From NCBI RefSeq assembly GCF_004211145.1, contig NZ_SEBS01000003.1:62001-126000 (forward strand): a stretch of DNA of 64,000 nucleotides, written 5' to 3'. The first letter of the stretch is position 1; each line of letters starts with the position of its first letter. Both the position numbers and the translations under genes were made by a program. The DNA is from Flavobacterium sp. Its GTDB lineage: Bacteria > Bacteroidota > Bacteroidia > Flavobacteriales > Flavobacteriaceae. Shown piece by piece: positions 15,061 to 56,376 of this stretch. Under the pieces are notes generated by a model. That model ran no database searches. It saw only the letters and a program-made list of their open reading frames with translations, and had not been told where the DNA came from.

Positions 15061-15159
15061 GCCGATGCGCGCAAAAGATTTTTAGTCAAACTTTTAATGG
15101 CAAAAAATCTCCGACCGACTCAAACAGACGCCTCATAACAGGTTCAGGTCGAAATTTTC

Positions 15160-15345
15160 CAACGGAAGACAACGTTTCAAATCAACAAATCAACAAATCA
15201 ACAAGATACCCAAAACGTCCAACGGAAGACACTGATTCAAATCAACAAATCAACAAATCAACAAATTACCCCAAAACGTCCAACGGAAGACAACGTTTCA
15301 AATCAACAAATCAACAAATCAACAAATCAACAAAATCAAAAATCC
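15160..15345 (+). repeat. Three ~61-bp units: CAACGGAAGACA-N-TTCAAATCAAC followed by AAATCAAC octads
   Basis: Direct reading; GGAAGACA starts at ~15164, ~15224 and ~15285. Confidence 0.95.
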
Positions 15346-15425: not shown

Positions 15426-17189
15426 ATGAAAAAAACAAAACTACTTCTAGCGCTATTCTTCGTAGCAAGCCTGTTTATCAGATGTAATCACGACGATTCA
15501 GGTTCAGGAACCGACGACGGACCGTCTGATTCCGATTTCGAACAAAACTTCGGCGCGACCGCTTCCCGTGATTTCATCGGCGAGGTCGTCGACATGAACA
15601 ACCAGCCCGTACAATCGGCCACCGTAAAGATCGGCGCGTTGAGTGTACAGACCGACTCGAACGGAATCTTCGTGATCAACGGCGCTTCGGTCCACCAGAA
15701 ATTCGCCTACATCACGGCCAACAAAACCGGGTACTTTGAAGGTTCACGTGCGATGGTTCCAACATCGGGCAAAAACAACGTGAAAATCATGTTGATCCCG
15801 AATGCGCCAATCGCGACGGTCTCTTCGGGCCAGGCGAGCGAAGTCACGACCGATTCGGGCACGAAAATCATTTTCGACGGATCGTTCCAGGACGAGAACG
15901 GCGCCGCGTATTCAGGAAATGTCGCGGTATCAGTGTATCATTTGAGTCCGTGGAACGCGAACCTCGACAAATTGATGCCCGGAATGATGTATGCCGAGAG
16001 AGAAAACGGCGATGAAGCCACGCTTGAAACGTTCGGCATGATCAACGTCGAACTTCGAGGTGCAGGCGGACAAAAATTACAACCTGCCCAAGATCATCCG
16101 GCGACGATCGAAGTAATGCTCGACGCCGCTCAAATGGCGAATGCGCCTGCGTCAATCCCGTTGTGGCATTTCGACGCCGCAAAAGGCTGGTGGAAAGAAG
16201 ACGGGGTTGCGACGCGCCAAGGCAACAAATATGTGGGCGAAACGTCACATTTCTCATGGTGGAACTGCGATGCGCCATTCCCGACAGTACACTTCGACGT
16301 GACCGTAACCAATCAGGACGGAAGCCCTGTCTCGAATGCTCCCGTGTTCATTACGATGGCCGGGCAAAACTGGCCGACTTTGGGTTACACGAATTCAAAC
16401 GGGCAGGCGAGCGGGTTGATCCCATCGAACGCAGCATTGACGATCAGCGTGAAAGACGTTTGCGGAAACATCGTGTATACGACGACAGCCGGTCCTTACA
16501 CCGCCGACGCAACGCTTGCGATCACATTACCCGTGAGCAGTGTCGAAACCGCAACGATACAAGGAACATTGTTGAGTTGCGACGGAAATAACGTCACGAA
16601 CGGCTACATCTTGTTGCGCTACGCAGGTGTAAGTCAAGTCGCCGAGGTGACCAATGGCGATTTCAGCTTCACCGCTTTGGTTTGCACCGCGGGACAAACG
16701 TTTACGCTTCAGGGTGCCGATTTCGATTCGCTCCAGCAGACGGATTCCATCAGCTATACATTCCAGGCGCCAGTCACGAACGTGGGGAATCTACAGGCTT
16801 GTAGTACGGTCGACGAATTCATCTCGTACCAGATCGACGACGAACCGACCGTATTCCTGATCCAGGAAGTGAACGCGAGCTTGGGAAGCCAGGGACAAAC
16901 CAATGGCCTTTCAATTTCAGGTTTCAACGAAGGAAATACGCCGACAGGTTTCGCATCGCTTTACATCTACAGCGGAAGCGTGAGCACGCCGGGAACATAT
17001 ACGACAGCGCAATTCTCGCTTGAAGGAACCTTGGGTTACATCTTCTCGGGGACGACGAACGATGTGGTGTTCACGTTGACGAACGTAGGCGCGCCGGGAG
17101 AATACATAGACCTGACCTTTAGTGGAACGTACGTACAGGAAGGCGAAACGCATACCCTATCAGGTGTTGCGCACGCGATTAGGAATTGA
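15426..17189 (+). CDS. Carboxypeptidase-like regulatory domain lipoprotein (paralog A)
   Basis: Lipoprotein-like signal MKKTKLLLALFFVASLFIRC; the track start at 15057 is extended through repeats. Confidence 0.8.
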   Translation: MKKTKLLLALFFVASLFIRCNHDDSGSGTDDGPSDSDFEQNFGATASRDFIGEVVDMNNQPVQSATVKIGALSVQTDSNGIFVINGASVHQKFAYITANKTGYFEGSRAMVPTSGKNNVKIMLIPNAPIATVSSGQASEVTTDSGTKIIFDGSFQDENGAAYSGNVAVSVYHLSPWNANLDKLMPGMMYAERENGDEATLETFGMINVELRGAGGQKLQPAQDHPATIEVMLDAAQMANAPASIPLWHFDAAKGWWKEDGVATRQGNKYVGETSHFSWWNCDAPFPTVHFDVTVTNQDGSPVSNAPVFITMAGQNWPTLGYTNSNGQASGLIPSNAALTISVKDVCGNIVYTTTAGPYTADATLAITLPVSSVETATIQGTLLSCDGNNVTNGYILLRYAGVSQVAEVTNGDFSFTALVCTAGQTFTLQGADFDSLQQTDSISYTFQAPVTNVGNLQACSTVDEFISYQIDDEPTVFLIQEVNASLGSQGQTNGLSISGFNEGNTPTGFASLYIYSGSVSTPGTYTTAQFSLEGTLGYIFSGTTNDVVFTLTNVGAPGEYIDLTFSGTYVQEGETHTLSGVAHAIRN

Positions 17190-17296: not shown

Positions 17297-19012
17297 ATGA
17301 AAAAACTACTTTTACTCGTGCCCGTCGTATTGGCGGCGCTCACTTTTTTTGCATGCGATCCTGATCGCGAAGATTCCACTCCGGGTGGCGGAAATAATGT
17401 CTCCGACGAAGAATTCATGGAAAACTTCGGGAGTGCTGTTTCCCGAGATTTCATCGGGCAAGTCGTAGATGCCAATGACGATCCAATCCAGAATGCCACG
17501 GTCAAAATCGGTTCCTCGACCGTCCAGACCGACGAAAACGGCGTGTTCATCATCAACGAAGCGCAAGTCCATCAAAAATTCGCGTACGTAAAAGCCTCGA
17601 AATCGGGTTACATCGACGGGTCGCGCGCTTTGGTTCCGACATCGGGCAAAAACAATGTCAAGATAATGTTGTTGCAATCGGGCGCGTTGGAAACCATTCA
17701 ATCGGGAGAGGAAAGTGTCGTGTCGATCTATTCGGGCACACAAGTTAAATTCGACGGCGCGTTCGAGGACGAAAATGGCGTTCCGTATTCAGGCAGCGTC
17801 GGCGTTTTCATGTTCCACTTGACGCCTTCGAACGAGAAAATTTCAGAACTGCAACCCGGAATGTTATATGCCGAAACCGAAACGGGCGACGAAGCCGTAT
17901 TGCAAACATTCGGCATGATAAACGTTGAACTGCGCGGTTCAGGCGGACAAAAACTTCAGATAGCCGAAGGTCACACGGCCGAAATCACGATGCGTATCGA
18001 CGACGGCCAAATCGCATCAGCCCCGGCCACGATCCCGCTTTGGCACTTCGATGAGAATGCGGGTTGGTGGAAAGAAGACGGTTCGGCGACCAAACAAGGG
18101 AATTATTACGTTGGGAACGTAAGCCACTTTTCTTGGTGGAATTGTGATGTTTTTGAATCGGTAGTTATGCTTACAGTGACTGTAAAGGACGCCAACGGGA
18201 ATGCCGTTCCAAACGCTGTTACGTACTTGGAAATAGCGCAAAATAATCTTTTTAGCGGAACAATTACGACGGGTTCGACCGGCACGGCTGCAGGAATAGT
18301 TCCGTCAAATGTCGCACTGGACCTTTCGGTTGCGTTACCTTTTTGCCCCACGACAGTGCAGTCTGTCAGCATTGCACCAACTTCCACTGATTTAGCCGTT
18401 ACCGTTGTTATGGTAGACTATTCTCCTGAAATATTTTCAATATCTGGCGAATTAGTGTCATGTTCGGGTTCTTCAACAAATGGATACCTTCAGGTAAAAG
18501 TAAACGGTTTCATAAATCTATTCCCGGTCGAGGGAGATTTTCAAATAAGTATCGGAAATTGTGAAGCACCCGAAATTTTCCTTGTTCGTTCCAATAATTC
18601 TTCTTGGACACAATTTTTGGTGAATGGAACTGAAAATAATATTGGTGTACTTCCATTCTGTTCATCGACCACAGAATTTCTTGTTTATAAAATTGATGAC
18701 CAAGTTGCCAATGTTTACGTGGCAGGAATCAGTGCGACTTTTCAAAACGGGCAACTTAACGTAAACAGCGGAGGCACGAATCCTTTGGGAATTACTACCA
18801 GTGTGACAACGCCCGGCGTATACGATTCGGCCCAATTCTCATTACAATACAATGGCGTCACGATTCCCGCTGCCGCCATGCAACAAACCTACGTACTCAA
18901 TAAATTCGGAAGTGTCGGCGACTACATCGACCTTGTGTTTTACGGAACCTACACGGATCTCACGGGAGCACACAATCTCGTAGGAACCGCTCACGTGCTG
19001 CGCGACGAGTAA
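17297..19012 (+). CDS. Carboxypeptidase-like regulatory domain lipoprotein (paralog B)
   Basis: MKKLLLLVPVVLAALTFFAC lipobox; N-terminal ~300 aa closely similar to paralog A. Confidence 0.8.
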   Translation: MKKLLLLVPVVLAALTFFACDPDREDSTPGGGNNVSDEEFMENFGSAVSRDFIGQVVDANDDPIQNATVKIGSSTVQTDENGVFIINEAQVHQKFAYVKASKSGYIDGSRALVPTSGKNNVKIMLLQSGALETIQSGEESVVSIYSGTQVKFDGAFEDENGVPYSGSVGVFMFHLTPSNEKISELQPGMLYAETETGDEAVLQTFGMINVELRGSGGQKLQIAEGHTAEITMRIDDGQIASAPATIPLWHFDENAGWWKEDGSATKQGNYYVGNVSHFSWWNCDVFESVVMLTVTVKDANGNAVPNAVTYLEIAQNNLFSGTITTGSTGTAAGIVPSNVALDLSVALPFCPTTVQSVSIAPTSTDLAVTVVMVDYSPEIFSISGELVSCSGSSTNGYLQVKVNGFINLFPVEGDFQISIGNCEAPEIFLVRSNNSSWTQFLVNGTENNIGVLPFCSSTTEFLVYKIDDQVANVYVAGISATFQNGQLNVNSGGTNPLGITTSVTTPGVYDSAQFSLQYNGVTIPAAAMQQTYVLNKFGSVGDYIDLVFYGTYTDLTGAHNLVGTAHVLRDE

Positions 19013-22589: not shown

Positions 22590-23825
22590 TGCTTCGCAAG
22601 TTTTTTTTTGTTGCTTCGCAACTTTTTTTGACACGAAGACACGAAGGCACGAAGGCACGAAGGTTTGGTCGTTTTGATTTTTGCGTGTTGTAGTTTTGTG
22701 CTTTTTGTTTTTTTGTTTGTGCGCGTGTACTTTTCGCCTTGCACTTTGCACTTTGCACTGATGCATTTACCACACGAATTTTCCAATCAAAAAGCAACGT
22801 ATACGCCAACGGAAGACACGTATTCAAATAAACACCCGAGGCGCAGCCGAACTGATGGAGCGCAGCGGAATAAATCAACAAATCAACGAATCAACGAAAA
22901 AACCAACGTCCACGGAAAGGCAAGAATCAGATAAACAATTCAACTTTTTGGTTGCTTCGCAACTTTTTTAACACGAAGTCACGAAGGCACGAAGACTCGA
23001 AGGTTTGGTAGTTTTGATTTCTATGTTTTGCAGGTTTGTGTTTAATCATTCATGCACTTTGCACTTTGCACTGATGCATTTACCACACGAATTTTCCAAT
23101 CGAAAAGCAACGGAAGACACGTATTCAAATAAACAAATAAACAAATCAACGAATCAACGAATTATCGAATCAACAAATCAACGAAAAAACCAACGTCCAC
23201 GGAAGGCAAGAATCAAATAAACAATTCAACTTTTTGGTTGCTTCGCAACTTTTTTAACACGAAGGCACGAAGGCACGAAGACACGAAGGTTTGGTAGTTT
23301 TGATTTCTGCGTGTTGTGGTTTTGTGTTTAATCATTCATGTACTTTGCACCTTGCACCTTGCATCTTGCACTTTGCACTGATGCATTTACCACCACGGAT
23401 TTTTTCATTAGAAAGCAACGTATACGCTAACGGAAGACACGCATTCAAATAAACAAATCAACGAATCAACAAATCAACAAAAAACTAAAGTCTACGGAAG
23501 GCAAGAATCAAATAAACAATTCAACTTTTTGGTTGCTTCGCAACTTTTTTAACACGAAGGCACGAAGGCACGAAGTTTTGGTAGTTTTGATTTCTACGTG
23601 TTGTGGTTTTGTGTTTAATCATTTATGCACCTTGCACCTTGCACCTTGCACCTTGCACTTTGCACTGATGACCTCCACGGATTTTTTCATCAAAAAGCAA
23701 CATATACGCCAACGGAAGACAGGCATTCAAATAAACAAATCAACAAATCAACAAATCAACAAAAAAACTAAAGTCCACGGAAGCCAAGATTCAAATAAAC
23801 AATCAAACGATTCAACAATTAACCA
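22590..23825 (+). repeat. Four tandem ~290-340-bp composite repeat units
   Basis: Each unit: GTTGCTTCGCAAC-Tn, CACGAAGG octads, GGTTTGGTnGTTTTGATTT, TTGCACT/TTGCACC heptads, CAACGGAAGACA anchor, AAATCAAC octads, CCACGGAAGGCAAGAATCAAATAAACAATTCAAC; hairpins at 22613, 22954, 23240 and 23535. Confidence 0.95.
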
Positions 23826-46116: not shown

Positions 46117-47328
46117 CTAAACTTCCTTCCTCGTCAACTTCAACAAATAAGCTGACAACGCACAAGCGACCAACCCGAATCCCGCCATCGCCATCCAATT
46201 CGCACCATAACCAAATCCAGAAACAATCGCCATCCCGATTTTCGAATTGACCATGTGCGCCAAACTGAACATCATCGTAAATAATCCCATGTATAAACCC
46301 ATGCGTTGTTTCGGCGCGCGATTCTGGGCGAAAGCGTTCGAGAACGGGAACGCGAAGATTTCCCCGAACGATAGAAATATAATATTGAGTACGAGCAATC
46401 CTGCCCAATCGTCGGGCAACAAAACCAAAAATCCGAATACCATGCAGATCGCACCCAGCAAAAAAGGTTTGAGTTTGTCGATTTTCTTGCGTTCGCAATA
46501 ACCCACGATCGGCATTTCAAAAAGAAAGACGAGCAATCCATTGAACGTGAGCAGCAATCCGGTTTGTACTTCGGTCAGTCCGTAACGCTCGAAGTGATAG
46601 AGCGGGAGCGTGGTCAGAATCTGGAAAAATACCATCGAAACCAAAAAACTCGCGACCAGAAAAAGCAGGAATATCTTGTCTTTCATCACCGACGGAATCG
46701 GCTTTTCGTCAATTTCGTGCTGCTCCAAAACCACTTTTTTCTTTTCCTTGACGAGCAGCGCGAACAATGCTACCGAAAGAATGCACGTCGATCCGTCAAT
46801 CCAGAACAAGCCCTGGTATCCGATTCCCATGATAATAAAGCCGCCAAGCGCAGGCCCGGCCGCGAAGCCTAAATTCACCGCGAGTCGTACCAGCGTAAAG
46901 GCGCGCACGCGGTTTTCAGGTTTCGCATACGTGCCGATCGATACGAACATCGCGGGCCGGAACATGTCGGCGATGACCATGATCACGAACATGCTCGCGC
47001 ACAATTGTTCGAACGTGCGCGCGTATTGAATCACGAAAAACAGTAAACCGGTCGTGAGCATGCTTGCGACCATAATTTTATAGAATCCGATCTTGTCGCT
47101 GAGTCGTCCGCCGAGCCAGGAACCGATAGCCGAACCCAATCCGAACCAAACCATGACCGTCCCGACCTGTTCATAAGAGAATTTCAGATCCTCATACATG
47201 TATTTTGTCAGGAACGGCAACACCATCGTGCCCGCGCGGTTGATGAACGTAATGATCGTAAGGATCCAAATCTCGCGCGAGAAACCTTTGAAGTTGTTGA
47301 TGTAACGCGAGAAGGCGGTTTGGAGCAT
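46117..47328 (-). CDS. MFS transporter
   Basis: 12-TM-like, GLGSAIGSWLGGRLSDKIGFYKI motif A. Confidence 0.93.
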   Translation of the reverse strand: MLQTAFSRYINNFKGFSREIWILTIITFINRAGTMVLPFLTKYMYEDLKFSYEQVGTVMVWFGLGSAIGSWLGGRLSDKIGFYKIMVASMLTTGLLFFVIQYARTFEQLCASMFVIMVIADMFRPAMFVSIGTYAKPENRVRAFTLVRLAVNLGFAAGPALGGFIIMGIGYQGLFWIDGSTCILSVALFALLVKEKKKVVLEQHEIDEKPIPSVMKDKIFLLFLVASFLVSMVFFQILTTLPLYHFERYGLTEVQTGLLLTFNGLLVFLFEMPIVGYCERKKIDKLKPFLLGAICMVFGFLVLLPDDWAGLLVLNIIFLSFGEIFAFPFSNAFAQNRAPKQRMGLYMGLFTMMFSLAHMVNSKIGMAIVSGFGYGANWMAMAGFGLVACALSAYLLKLTRKEV

Positions 47329-47336
47329 TGGGTTGA

Positions 47337-48478
47337 TTAGATGATTAGAAAATTAGATGATTAGAAAATTAGCGGATTAGCGGATTAGCGAATTAGCGAA
47401 TGTACAAATTGGAGGGACGAATCGTGTTTTAAATGGCGTAAAACTTCCGGTTGGAGGAAAAGGTGTAAATATTTGGAAGATTGAATTCGCTAATTTCTAA
47501 TTTCGAATGTACAAATTGGATGCATGAATTGTGTTTTAAACCGCGTAAAATTATAATCGAAGGGAATACGCGTAAGCGGTTGGAACAACGAATTTGCTAA
47601 TTCGCTAATTTTCCAATCCGCTAATTTTCAAACGTACAAATTGAAAGAACAAATGGCTTTTAAACCGCATAAAATCATAATCGAAGGAATAGGCGTAAAT
47701 GTTTAAAAGATCGAATTCGCTAATCCGCTAATTTTCCAATCCGCTAACTTTCAAACGTGCAAATTGAAAGAACAAATGGCTTTTAAACCGCATAAAGTCA
47801 TAATCGAAGGAATAGGCGTAAATGTTTAAAAGATCAAATTCGCTAATCCGCTAATTTTCCAATCCGCTAATTTTCAAAACGCACAAATTGAAAGAACAAA
47901 TGGCGTCTAAACCGCGTAAAATTATAATCGAAGGAATAGGCGTAAATATTTAAAAGATCGAATTCGCTAATCCGCTAATTTTCTAATCCGCTAATTTTCC
48001 AAACGTTCAAATTGAAAGAACAAACGGCGTTTTAAACCGCGTAAAATTATAATCGAAGGAATAGGCGTAAATATTTAAAAGATCGAATTCGCTAATCCGC
48101 TAATTTTCTAATCCGCTAATTTTCAAAACGTCCAAATTGAAAGAACAAACGGCGTTTTAAACCGCGTAAAATCATAATCGAAGGAATAGGCGTAAATGTT
48201 TAAAAGATCGAATTCGCTAATCCGCTAATTTTTAAAACGTTCAAATTGAAAGAACAAATGGCGTCTAAACCGCGTAAAACTATAATCGAAGGAATAGGCG
48301 TAAATGTTTAAAAGATCGAATCCGCTAATCCGCTAATTTTCCAATTCGCTAATTTTCAAACATACTTGTAAAAACGAATCGCTTTTAAACTGCGTAAAAG
48401 TTCCAATCGAAGGAATAAGCGTAAACGTTTAGAACAACGAATCCGCTAATTCGCTAATTCTCTAATTCGCTAATCCCC
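47337..48478. repeat. Nine ~124-bp tandem repeats preceded by inverted GATTAGCG octads
   Basis: CAAATT landmarks at 47404/47511/47636/47760/47884/48008/48133/48242/~48365; units contain TTTAAACCGCGTAAAATTATAATCGAAGGAATAGGCGTAAAT and CCGCTAAT octads. Confidence 0.97.
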
Positions 48479-48511
48479 CAATTAATACATATTTTTGTAA
48501 AAAAAGCAACT

Positions 48512-49111
48512 ATGAAGTCGCTATCAATTTGTTTACTTTTCGTCTGCCTGAGTGGATTTTCGCAGGACAAATACGATGTCGCGGCGGCCGAAAGCTACCA
48601 GAAGCAACTCGATTCCGAATACGCCGACCCAAAGGAATCGCCTTTGCTGGACTCGGATCGCGAGCATTTCAAAGGATTGGATTTTTACGCGATCGATGCG
48701 AAATACATCGTCAATGCGAAATTTTCCCAGGTCAAGGAAGCAAGGCCGTTCGAGATGAAAACCACGGGCGCGCGACGTCCGATGTACGTGCTTTTCGGAA
48801 TCATCGAATTTTCGATCGACGGCAAACCGTTGAAATTGAACGTATATCGCAACATCGAACTTTCTAAAAAAGACGAATATAAAGATCACCTTTTCCTGCC
48901 GTTTTCTGACCTGACAAGCGGAAAGGAAAGTTACATCGGCGGGCGTTACATCGATTTGCGGGTTCCCGCGGGCGATACGATCGTCATCGATTTCAACCGA
49001 GCGTACAATCCGTATTGCGCGTACAATCCGAAATATTCGTGTCCGATCGTACCGCTTGAAAACGATTTGTCGGTCGAGATAAAAGCCGGCGTAAAAAAAT
49101 TCCACGATTGA
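48512..49111 (+). CDS. DUF1684 domain-containing protein
   Basis: Signal peptide; GRRYIDLRVPAGDTIVIDFNRAYNPYCAYNPKYSCPIVP-type C-terminus (here GGRYIDLRVP...). Confidence 0.88.
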   Translation: MKSLSICLLFVCLSGFSQDKYDVAAAESYQKQLDSEYADPKESPLLDSDREHFKGLDFYAIDAKYIVNAKFSQVKEARPFEMKTTGARRPMYVLFGIIEFSIDGKPLKLNVYRNIELSKKDEYKDHLFLPFSDLTSGKESYIGGRYIDLRVPAGDTIVIDFNRAYNPYCAYNPKYSCPIVPLENDLSVEIKAGVKKFHD

Positions 49112-54668: not shown

Positions 54669-56376
54669 ATATCGTTTGTGACTTCGTTCGGAAAATGGTC
54701 GCCTGAAAAATCACGGCCAATACGATCGCCATCGCGGCTCCGATGAAGTTCAGCCATAAAAATCCGATGACTTCTTCCTTGTAGATATACGCGTAGTAAA
54801 TGTAAAAGATCGAAAGCTGCGTGATCACGGCACTCCAGAAGATCGCCTTCGCTTTTATGAATTTCATATAGAATCCAACGAGGAAGATCGCGAGAACGGT
54901 CGGGTAGAAGATCGATCCGATGATGTTCACCAACTGTATCAGATTCTCGAACAAGTTGCCGATACACGCGAACAGGATCGCGATCACGCCCCAGACCAAC
55001 GTGAAGAACTTCGTCGCGTTCACGTAATGTTTTTCGGATTTTATCGATTTGACGTTGCGTTTGTAGATGTCGATCGCCGTCGTCGATGCCAAGGCGCTCA
55101 AACCCGAAGCCGTCGATGACATGGCCGCCGACAGAATCACCGCGAGCAATAATCCGATCAAACCCTGCGGCAGGTAATTCAATATGAAATGGATGAACAC
55201 GTAATCTTTGTCGTTTTTCTCGGCCTTGCTGTCGGCTTTTGAAATGAGTTCCTTCGCCTGGTCGCGCAAGTCGTTTTCGCGTCCCGACAATGAAACCAGT
55301 TGTTTGCGCAGGATCGGATTGTCGTAACCCTGGTTCAGATGGTCGATGTAAATGAGGTTGAACTCTTTCTTTTCCTCGGTGAGTTTCGCAAGTTTGTCCT
55401 CGAGCTGATGGTATTCTTCCTTGTATTTCGATTTCTCGATCACGATCTTGTTGTTCGGATTAAAATTCAAAGGCACGGGATTGAACTGGAAAAACACGAA
55501 AACCATCACGCCCGTAAGCAGAATGAAAAACTGCATCGGCACTTTCAAAAAGCCGTTCATTATCAATCCCATTTGACTTTCTCGGATCGATTTGCCCGAC
55601 AGATAACGCCCAACCTGCGACTGGTCAGTACCGAAATACGCGAGCATCAAGAAAAAACCGCCCGTGATGCCGCTCCACAACGTGTATCTCGTTTCAGGAT
55701 CATACGACAGATCGACGATGTTCATCTTGCCGTTCGCGCCCGCAATCTGCAGCGCATTCGTAAACGACATATCGTTCGGAAGCAGATTCAAAATGAGGAA
55801 AAATGTGAGAAACATCCCAAGCATGATCACGAACATCTGTTGTTTTTGTGTCACGTTCACGGCTTTCGTACCGCCTGAAAAAGTGTAGATGATGACCATG
55901 ATCCCGATGATGATGTTGAGCAGCGTCAGATTCCATCCGAGTAACGTCGACACGATGATCGCCGGAGCGTAAATCGTCAACCCCGTTCCGAGTCCGCGCT
56001 GGATCAGGAAAACGATGGCGGCCAGCGAACGCGTGCGCAAATCGAATCGCTGCTCGAGATATTCGTAAGCCGTGTAAACCTTGAGTCGCGCGAAAATCGG
56101 GATAAACGTGATGCTGATGATGACCATCGCGATAGGCAACCCGAAGTAGAATTGCACGAAACCCATTCCGTCGGCGTACGCTTGTCCCGGCGTCGACAAA
56201 AACGTGATCGCGCTGGCCTGTGTCGCCATGACCGAAAGCCCGACGGTCCACCAAGGCGTCTCGTTATTGCCCAGGATATAATCTTCGACATTCTTGCTGC
56301 CGCGCGTCTTATAAACGCCGTAAACCACTATGAACAGTAGCGTGACCGATAAAATGATCCAATCAATCTGGTGCAT
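54667..56376 (-). CDS. Sodium:solute symporter
   Basis: MHQIDWIILSVTLLFIVVYGVYKTRGSKNVEDYILGNNETPWWTVGLSVMATQASAITFLSTPGQAY. Confidence 0.95.
   Translation of the reverse strand: MHQIDWIILSVTLLFIVVYGVYKTRGSKNVEDYILGNNETPWWTVGLSVMATQASAITFLSTPGQAYADGMGFVQFYFGLPIAMVIISITFIPIFARLKVYTAYEYLEQRFDLRTRSLAAIVFLIQRGLGTGLTIYAPAIIVSTLLGWNLTLLNIIIGIMVIIYTFSGGTKAVNVTQKQQMFVIMLGMFLTFFLILNLLPNDMSFTNALQIAGANGKMNIVDLSYDPETRYTLWSGITGGFFLMLAYFGTDQSQVGRYLSGKSIRESQMGLIMNGFLKVPMQFFILLTGVMVFVFFQFNPVPLNFNPNNKIVIEKSKYKEEYHQLEDKLAKLTEEKKEFNLIYIDHLNQGYDNPILRKQLVSLSGRENDLRDQAKELISKADSKAEKNDKDYVFIHFILNYLPQGLIGLLLAVILSAAMSSTASGLSALASTTAIDIYKRNVKSIKSEKHYVNATKFFTLVWGVIAILFACIGNLFENLIQLVNIIGSIFYPTVLAIFLVGFYMKFIKAKAIFWSAVITQLSIFYIYYAYIYKEEVIGFLWLNFIGAAMAIVLAVIFQATIFRTKSQTI

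Follow-up and report, generated by a model that had tools for sequence, protein, structure and literature searches.

A composite minisatellite in a Flavobacterium intergenic spacer bordered by mirrored octamer arrays

The spacer between two divergent genes of Flavobacterium sp., encoding an MFS transporter and a DUF1684 protein, is filled by a tandem array that is in itself an ordinary intergenic minisatellite: as in other bacterial minisatellites of this kind, its units lie head to tail, exceed about 30 nt, are highly identical and are non-coding. The array is also one extreme case of a genome-wide layout in which many spacers carry mirrored repeats of 7-9 bases at both borders, and this layout looks undescribed. 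We consider it probable that the array is a composite minisatellite that grew, by slippage or unequal exchange, within one such arm-bounded spacer. The data presented below show its anatomy, its recency, the identity gradient among its units and the recurrence of the same composition elsewhere; growth and changes in copy number are deduced, since the data come from one isolate and a single 93-contig assembly.

Anatomy of the array and its spacer

The spacer occupies positions 47329-48511 (1183 bp) of the window, by which we mean the whole stretch of 64,000 nt that was analysed. Genes were called with a simple codon-usage script rather than a published predictor. The features are as follows.

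46117-47328, minus strand: MFS transporter gene, left divergent neighbour (PF07690)
47334-47401, minus strand: left arm, eight octamers (CTAATTTT / CTAATCCG / CTAATTCG on the minus strand), 5 nt from the MFS start codon
47348-47355, minus strand: octamer TAATTTTC, candidate MFS promoter box at -27, one mismatch to TANNTTTG
47405-47511, plus strand: unit 1, 107 bp, diverged, two octamers fewer
47512-47636, plus strand: unit 2, 125 bp, diverged
47637-47759, plus strand: unit 3, from the unit alignment
47760-47883, plus strand: unit 4, from the unit alignment
47884-48007, plus strand: unit 5, the reference copy (core 47884-47961, octamers about 47962-47999)
48008-48132, plus strand: unit 6, from the unit alignment
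48133-48241, plus strand: unit 7, 109 bp, two octamers fewer
48242-48361, plus strand: unit 8, from the unit alignment
48362-48483, plus strand: unit 9, diverged; its octamers (48440-48483) form the right arm of the spacer
48490-48497, plus strand: DUF1684 promoter -7 box TATTTTTG, positioned as in relatives, with the start codon 22 nt downstream
48512-49111, plus strand: DUF1684 gene, right divergent neighbour (PF07920)

The first-pass annotation had described nine tandem units of about 124 bp between the divergent genes, and both TRF and the unit alignment confirm them. The units run from 47405 to 48483 and measure 107-125 bp each; TRF reported a period of 125 bp in 7.7 copies (score 1315, 87% matches) and a separate 107-bp pair at the left end. 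The CAAATT landmarks that had been listed for the unit starts were mostly right, with three values off by one: they lie at 47405, 47512, 47637, 47760, 47884, 48008, 48133 and 48242, and unit 9 has lost its CAAATT. Near-identity of the central units and divergence of the edge units, also claimed earlier, are borne out by pairwise identities of 91-97% among units 3-8 (97% between units 5 and 6), against 67-83% between units 1, 2 or 9 and the remaining units. Each unit has a core of about 75 nt followed by a run of CTAATTCG-type (CTAAT-type) octamers, which occur in the variants CTAATTCG, CTAATCCG and CTAATTTT. The two units that had been said to lack a block, units 1 and 7, are indeed shorter, by 16-18 nt; what they lack, however, is two octamers and not an arbitrary block. 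No ORF crosses the array, in agreement with the annotation, the longest stop-free stretch in any frame being 55 codons. A CRISPR array could be discarded because the entire 124-bp unit repeats, without unique inserts.

Left of unit 1, the octamers of the array are present in inverted orientation. All eight copies of ATTAG fall within this left arm, and all 27 copies of CTAAT lie to its right. The core together with the right-arm octamers is repeated nine times; the left arm is not repeated. The right arm ends at 48483, shortly before the DUF1684 promoter box.

Age of the array and composite minisatellites elsewhere

The gene order MFS / DUF1684 / TatD is kept across the genus Flavobacterium. 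The homologous spacer measures 84-303 bp (median 97.5) in 38 relatives and has a median of 98 bp (maximum 276) at 68 loci from named records, mostly of Flavobacterium, and none of them carries the array; some of the named records may be the same genomes as the 38 relatives, which bears on the total of 106 comparisons with other Flavobacterium loci (median about 98 bp). The two closest genomes, judged by the MFS protein, are Flavobacterium sp. PMG_227 (76% identical, spacer of 209 bp) and F. selenitireducens D33 (72-73% identical, spacer of 143 bp), and the array is absent from both spacers. The 124-bp unit was not found in the genomes of 60 relatives, and the exact core pattern had no match in 85,462 species, a set that possibly does not include the genome analysed here. 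The spacer of the relatives contains two back-to-back promoters; in the 38 genomes, most DUF1684 boxes fall at -22 to -25 and most MFS boxes at -24 to -31. These data show that the ancestral spacer was about 100 bp long and held two back-to-back promoters. Judged from these comparisons, the array is a recent, local expansion, since no relative carries the unit and the spacers of the relatives are short. Both the identity gradient and the lack of the array in all relatives support the view that it has grown or been homogenised internally.

Similar composite arrays are present elsewhere in the genome. In 464 kb we found 16 intergenic minisatellites with a period of at least 30, of which the MFS/DUF1684 array counts as two because TRF splits it into a 107-bp left part and a 125-bp main part. 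Ten of the 16 contain an array of 7-9-mers within the unit according to one and the same detector, which flagged the 107-bp part and not the 125-bp part, although the octamers of the latter are plain on reading. In 16 relatives, 320 kb yielded one intergenic minisatellite, with no 7-9-mer array inside. The window itself holds a composite minisatellite at 15158-15327 (61 bp x 2.8, CAAATCAA octamers) and another at 23152-23803 (287 bp x 2.3), with arrays of CAAATCAA, CACGAAGG and GCACTTT.

Mirrored repeat arrays at spacer edges

The annotation had recognised no described family in the unit. This holds for the whole unit, the core of which occurs in this genome at the MFS/DUF1684 spacer only, but not for the octamer half, which has matches elsewhere and belongs to a dispersed family that is nearly identical in about 20 spacers and shares the inner end CATTCG. 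When the table of octamer loci was read by hand, 20 of 21 pointed outward, to the gene edge closer by, irrespective of which way that gene runs. The 21 loci include the left arm of the MFS/DUF1684 spacer; two lie 37 and 89 nt from a predicted gene, the right-hand gene of L022 is uncalled because the contig ends there, and the exception is L023.

The octamers are part of a broader pattern. Our sample, an unbiased 400 kb plus the window, comprises 270 intergenic regions (69 kb) and about a tenth of the genome. Intergenic arrays with periods of 7, 8 and 9 number 54, 86 and 19, against 6.7, 7.7 and 1.3 in shuffles, and genes hold only 2, 10 and 9 of them in 392 kb; arrays with periods of 11-13 were absent from the intergenic sample. 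Of 165 arrays, 80 are situated no more than 25 nt from an edge of their spacer, where random placement predicts 52. Arrays at one edge are G-rich on the strand that reads from the gene into the spacer in 69 of 71 cases, at 5' and 3' gene ends alike, whereas array-free edges show this sign of polarity by only 214 to 96. The binomial p value of 1e-18 for this polarity is too strong, because the two arms of a pair in the same spacer do not count as independent, but a large excess remains. One simple rule, G-richness of edge arrays on the strand that leads out of the gene, irrespective of gene direction, applies in two sister species and, in weaker form, in the 16 genus relatives (37 of 45 arrays).

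The sister species in question is F. selenitireducens, whose strain D33 contains 60 matches to the octamer half; PMG_227 contains none. In stretches of D33 around octamer matches, the polarity rule holds for 62 of 64 edge arrays and the orientation of octamer arrays for 35 of 35, and in five stretches picked blindly the polarity was as expected in six of six. The orthologous spacers were ascertained on the D33 side, because its stretches were chosen for octamers. At two of them, L009/L220 and L029/L252, the arms at both edges are conserved (scores of 42-53, against a 95th percentile of 17-18 in a null built from unrelated edges) and the middle is unalignable by eye; the middle of L009 scored 37 without a matched null, so that "unalignable" is a judgement from reading the sequences. 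Arms are not the only edges to be conserved, because a few octamer-free orthologous edges, such as those at L075 4510 and at 56376 in the window, score high too. At two further orthologous spacers, both between co-directional (++) genes (L081 15608, spanning 15605-15714, and L081 18078, spanning 18075-18199, versus L235 of F. selenitireducens), mirrored arms are present in both species and the motif differs on both sides: AATAATT or AAAGATTT in our genome and TTAGCGAA in F. selenitireducens. A fifth orthologous spacer, L026, shares its right arm; its left arm differs. That arms keep their places at a protein identity of about 80% is a hint of selection, so that it may be wrong to deny the arms any function.

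The L026 spacer (about 1084-1541) and the matching L242 spacer also share a block, TAGCCCGGATGGAAGCGG ... GCGGACAGCCGGAATAGCT, that is conserved in both species and is possibly an RNA element. A second dispersed octamer family, CACGAAGGCACGAAGGCACGAAG, occurs at 36 places in our genome; its exact pattern was absent from the 296 other genomes sampled in the phylum. A search of 297 genomes across the phylum with the exact octamer and CACGAAGG patterns returned our genome only; being restricted to exact patterns it is silent on other motifs, and the sample missed carriers, as the matches in F. selenitireducens illustrate.

Possible roles and origin

The first-pass annotation had suggested that the array might be a promoter or operator series, a source of structured RNA or a copy-number switch. 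The RNA proposal is not supported: six single-unit folds, covering four units and for two of these both strands, gave z values of 0.25 to 1.8 relative to shuffles, the fold of the entire spacer is only about 1.3 sd better than those of 12 shuffles, and Rfam returned no match for the array at E values up to 1, so that a structured RNA family was rejected. A promoter array on the plus strand likewise lacks support. On that strand no TANNTTTG box lies inside the units, and the sole box on that strand is the one of DUF1684 at 48490, outside the array; on the minus strand TANNTTTG is exact at two of the eight unit junctions and has one mismatch at others, and we estimate that these two matches are about what chance and shared descent allow. 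Genome-wide, TANNTTTG boxes are most frequent at 20-40 nt upstream of start codons, and the opposite strand shows no such peak. The octamer TAATTTTC, one mismatch away from this box, sits at the ancestral position of the MFS box and is a putative MFS promoter box on this sequence evidence. A derivation of the core from the ancestral DUF1684 promoter was also rejected, only unit 9 giving p 0.005 among 64 comparisons, which is not significant.

That the array regulates MFS and DUF1684, as an operator or promoter series or as a copy-number switch, appears unlikely to us. Its position between two divergent promoters and the minus-strand junctions would agree with such a role, and PMC4679880 describes an analogous case, the AGAT and G-tract repeats of Moraxella, which are real 5'-leader switches. 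Nevertheless, besides lacking a plus-strand box, the array has a counterpart in no relative, its edge and middle units diverge freely, core included, and similar composite arrays adjoin unrelated genes. The array is not a self-contained regulatory device; it presumably has no regulatory role and is most likely an expandable spacer upstream of two core promoters. An assembly artefact, in the array or in its copy number, is very improbable: the assembly is a draft and units 5 and 6 are near-identical, but the array is internal to a contig of 198 kb, each of the nine units can be told apart by sequence and the edge units are strongly diverged.

A stronger rival holds that selection acts on the mirrored arms because they form RNA hairpins where transcripts end, for termination or 3'-end protection plus an unstructured leader. 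The array would then be a by-product, or else a version with multiple partners, the left arm being free to pair with each of the nine right-arm copies. On the one hand, spacers with arrays at both edges fold far below shuffles (median z -3.8; -5.7 for ++ and -6.3 for +- spacers, with all folding done on the plus strand, so that the -- class may be understated), edge arrays are commoner at 3' than at 5' gene ends (49/152 versus 26/196, p 2e-5), both-edge arrays occur in none of 47 divergent spacers of 80-400 bp as compared with 17 of 119 others (p 0.004), and mirrored arms persist despite a changed motif in the two orthologous ++ spacers. On the other hand, the MFS/DUF1684 spacer is divergent and its arms are not in one transcript, its fold is only slightly better than shuffles, the polarity rule is equal at 5' ends, array-free +- and ++ spacers also fold better than shuffles, and promoter constraint at 5' ends would likewise give a 3'-end excess. 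We regard this reading as possible but rather doubtful.

Dispersed, inverted intergenic repeats near gene ends are familiar from REP/BIME, MITE and DUS-type families, which have a fixed sequence per family and no tandem arrays of 7-9-mers; the edge arms, unlike these, are tandem 7-9-mers whose motif changes from spacer to spacer. The arms could in principle be the ends of a MITE-like or other mobile element that was inserted between the genes and later amplified inside, as the dispersed octamer family with its common inner end, found in our genome and F. selenitireducens only among the genomes searched, might suggest. This is improbable: the arms lie within a few nt of start or stop codons and not inside older spacer sequence (most, reaching codon boundaries, have no outer flank for comparing target sites), the motif differs among spacers and, at a given spacer, between species, and arm pairs enclose unrelated inner sequence, a judgement based on reading the sequences and on the absence of further matches to the core. 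The Y1/REP transposase was rejected as driver, with one weak match, fewer than in several relatives. Loss of SbcCD was rejected as the cause and would at most be permissive, because SbcD is below the cut-off in genus relatives too. SbcD was above the cut-off in none of nine Flavobacterium genomes (ours and eight relatives) and in 8 of 14 control genomes.

Under the origin we favour, growth by slippage or unequal exchange, octamer arms would have entered or replaced the spacer edges after the split from F. selenitireducens, and amplification of the core with the right arm would have come later. The first duplication may have used short homologies within the octamers (CGAAT / AATTCG), after which slippage or unequal exchange between 124-bp units would have expanded and homogenised the middle; gain or loss of whole octamers, as in units 1 and 7, would be a second level of change. 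More broadly, it is conceivable, at somewhat less than an even chance, that Flavobacterium spacers are framed by mirrored 7-9-mer arrays in which complementarity and not sequence is maintained, both arms changing motif in concert between species with their place unchanged. If so, selection would act on the arm pair as a structure, or there would be dedicated copying between spacer edges, and the array would be a runaway product of that process. In co-directional and convergent spacers the arms might pair as hairpins where transcripts end. The two arms of a divergent spacer are never in one transcript, so that copying between the edges at the DNA level would be needed there, and such copying would fit the divergent cases (MFS/DUF1684 and L009) as well as the motif swaps.

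Short intergenic repeats are known from other bacteria; in the open-access literature searched, we saw mirrored arms at spacer edges described nowhere for Flavobacterium. Flavobacterium psychrophilum has intergenic VNTR loci, mostly of 7-8 nt and including the octamer TTTCTAAT, whose copies vary among isolates (PMC4501049). Like the arrays of our genome they are short-period, tandem and intergenic, and belong to the same genus; in the part of that report we relied on, they are simple typing markers, and mirrored arms, polarity and composite 124-bp units are not described (PMC4501049). TAACTGA heptamer repeats occur in Beggiatoaceae, Cyanobacteria and some Bacteroidetes, and other heptamers are present in long spacers of Gramella forsetii, A. 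sublithincola and Elizabethkingia but missing from close relatives of G. forsetii and A. sublithincola (MacGregor 2015, PMC4679880). These repeats resemble the edge arrays in being short-period, intergenic and close to start codons, but consist of one fixed motif, mostly in one orientation upstream of start codons (PMC4679880), whereas edge arrays have many motifs, occupy both edges in inverted orientation and are also found at stop codons. The array is not a TAACTGA repeat, since it is built on the octamers CTAATTCG / CTAATCCG / CTAATTTT. Among long simple repeats, those with 7-mer units are the most frequent in many genomes (Mrazek 2007, as cited in PMC4679880). Among prokaryotic satellites, most families with long units are coding (PMC6749651); the 124-bp array is an intergenic satellite as well, but its unit is non-coding and built on octamers. 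If confirmed, the mirrored layout would allow concerted evolution of inverted arms to be tested directly in the intergenic DNA of bacteria, and would probably also supply VNTR markers for a widely studied genus. In four other Flavobacterium genomes (L083, L084, L092 and L094), a shared CTTAGAACCTTAG-type octamer family occurs at spacer edges.
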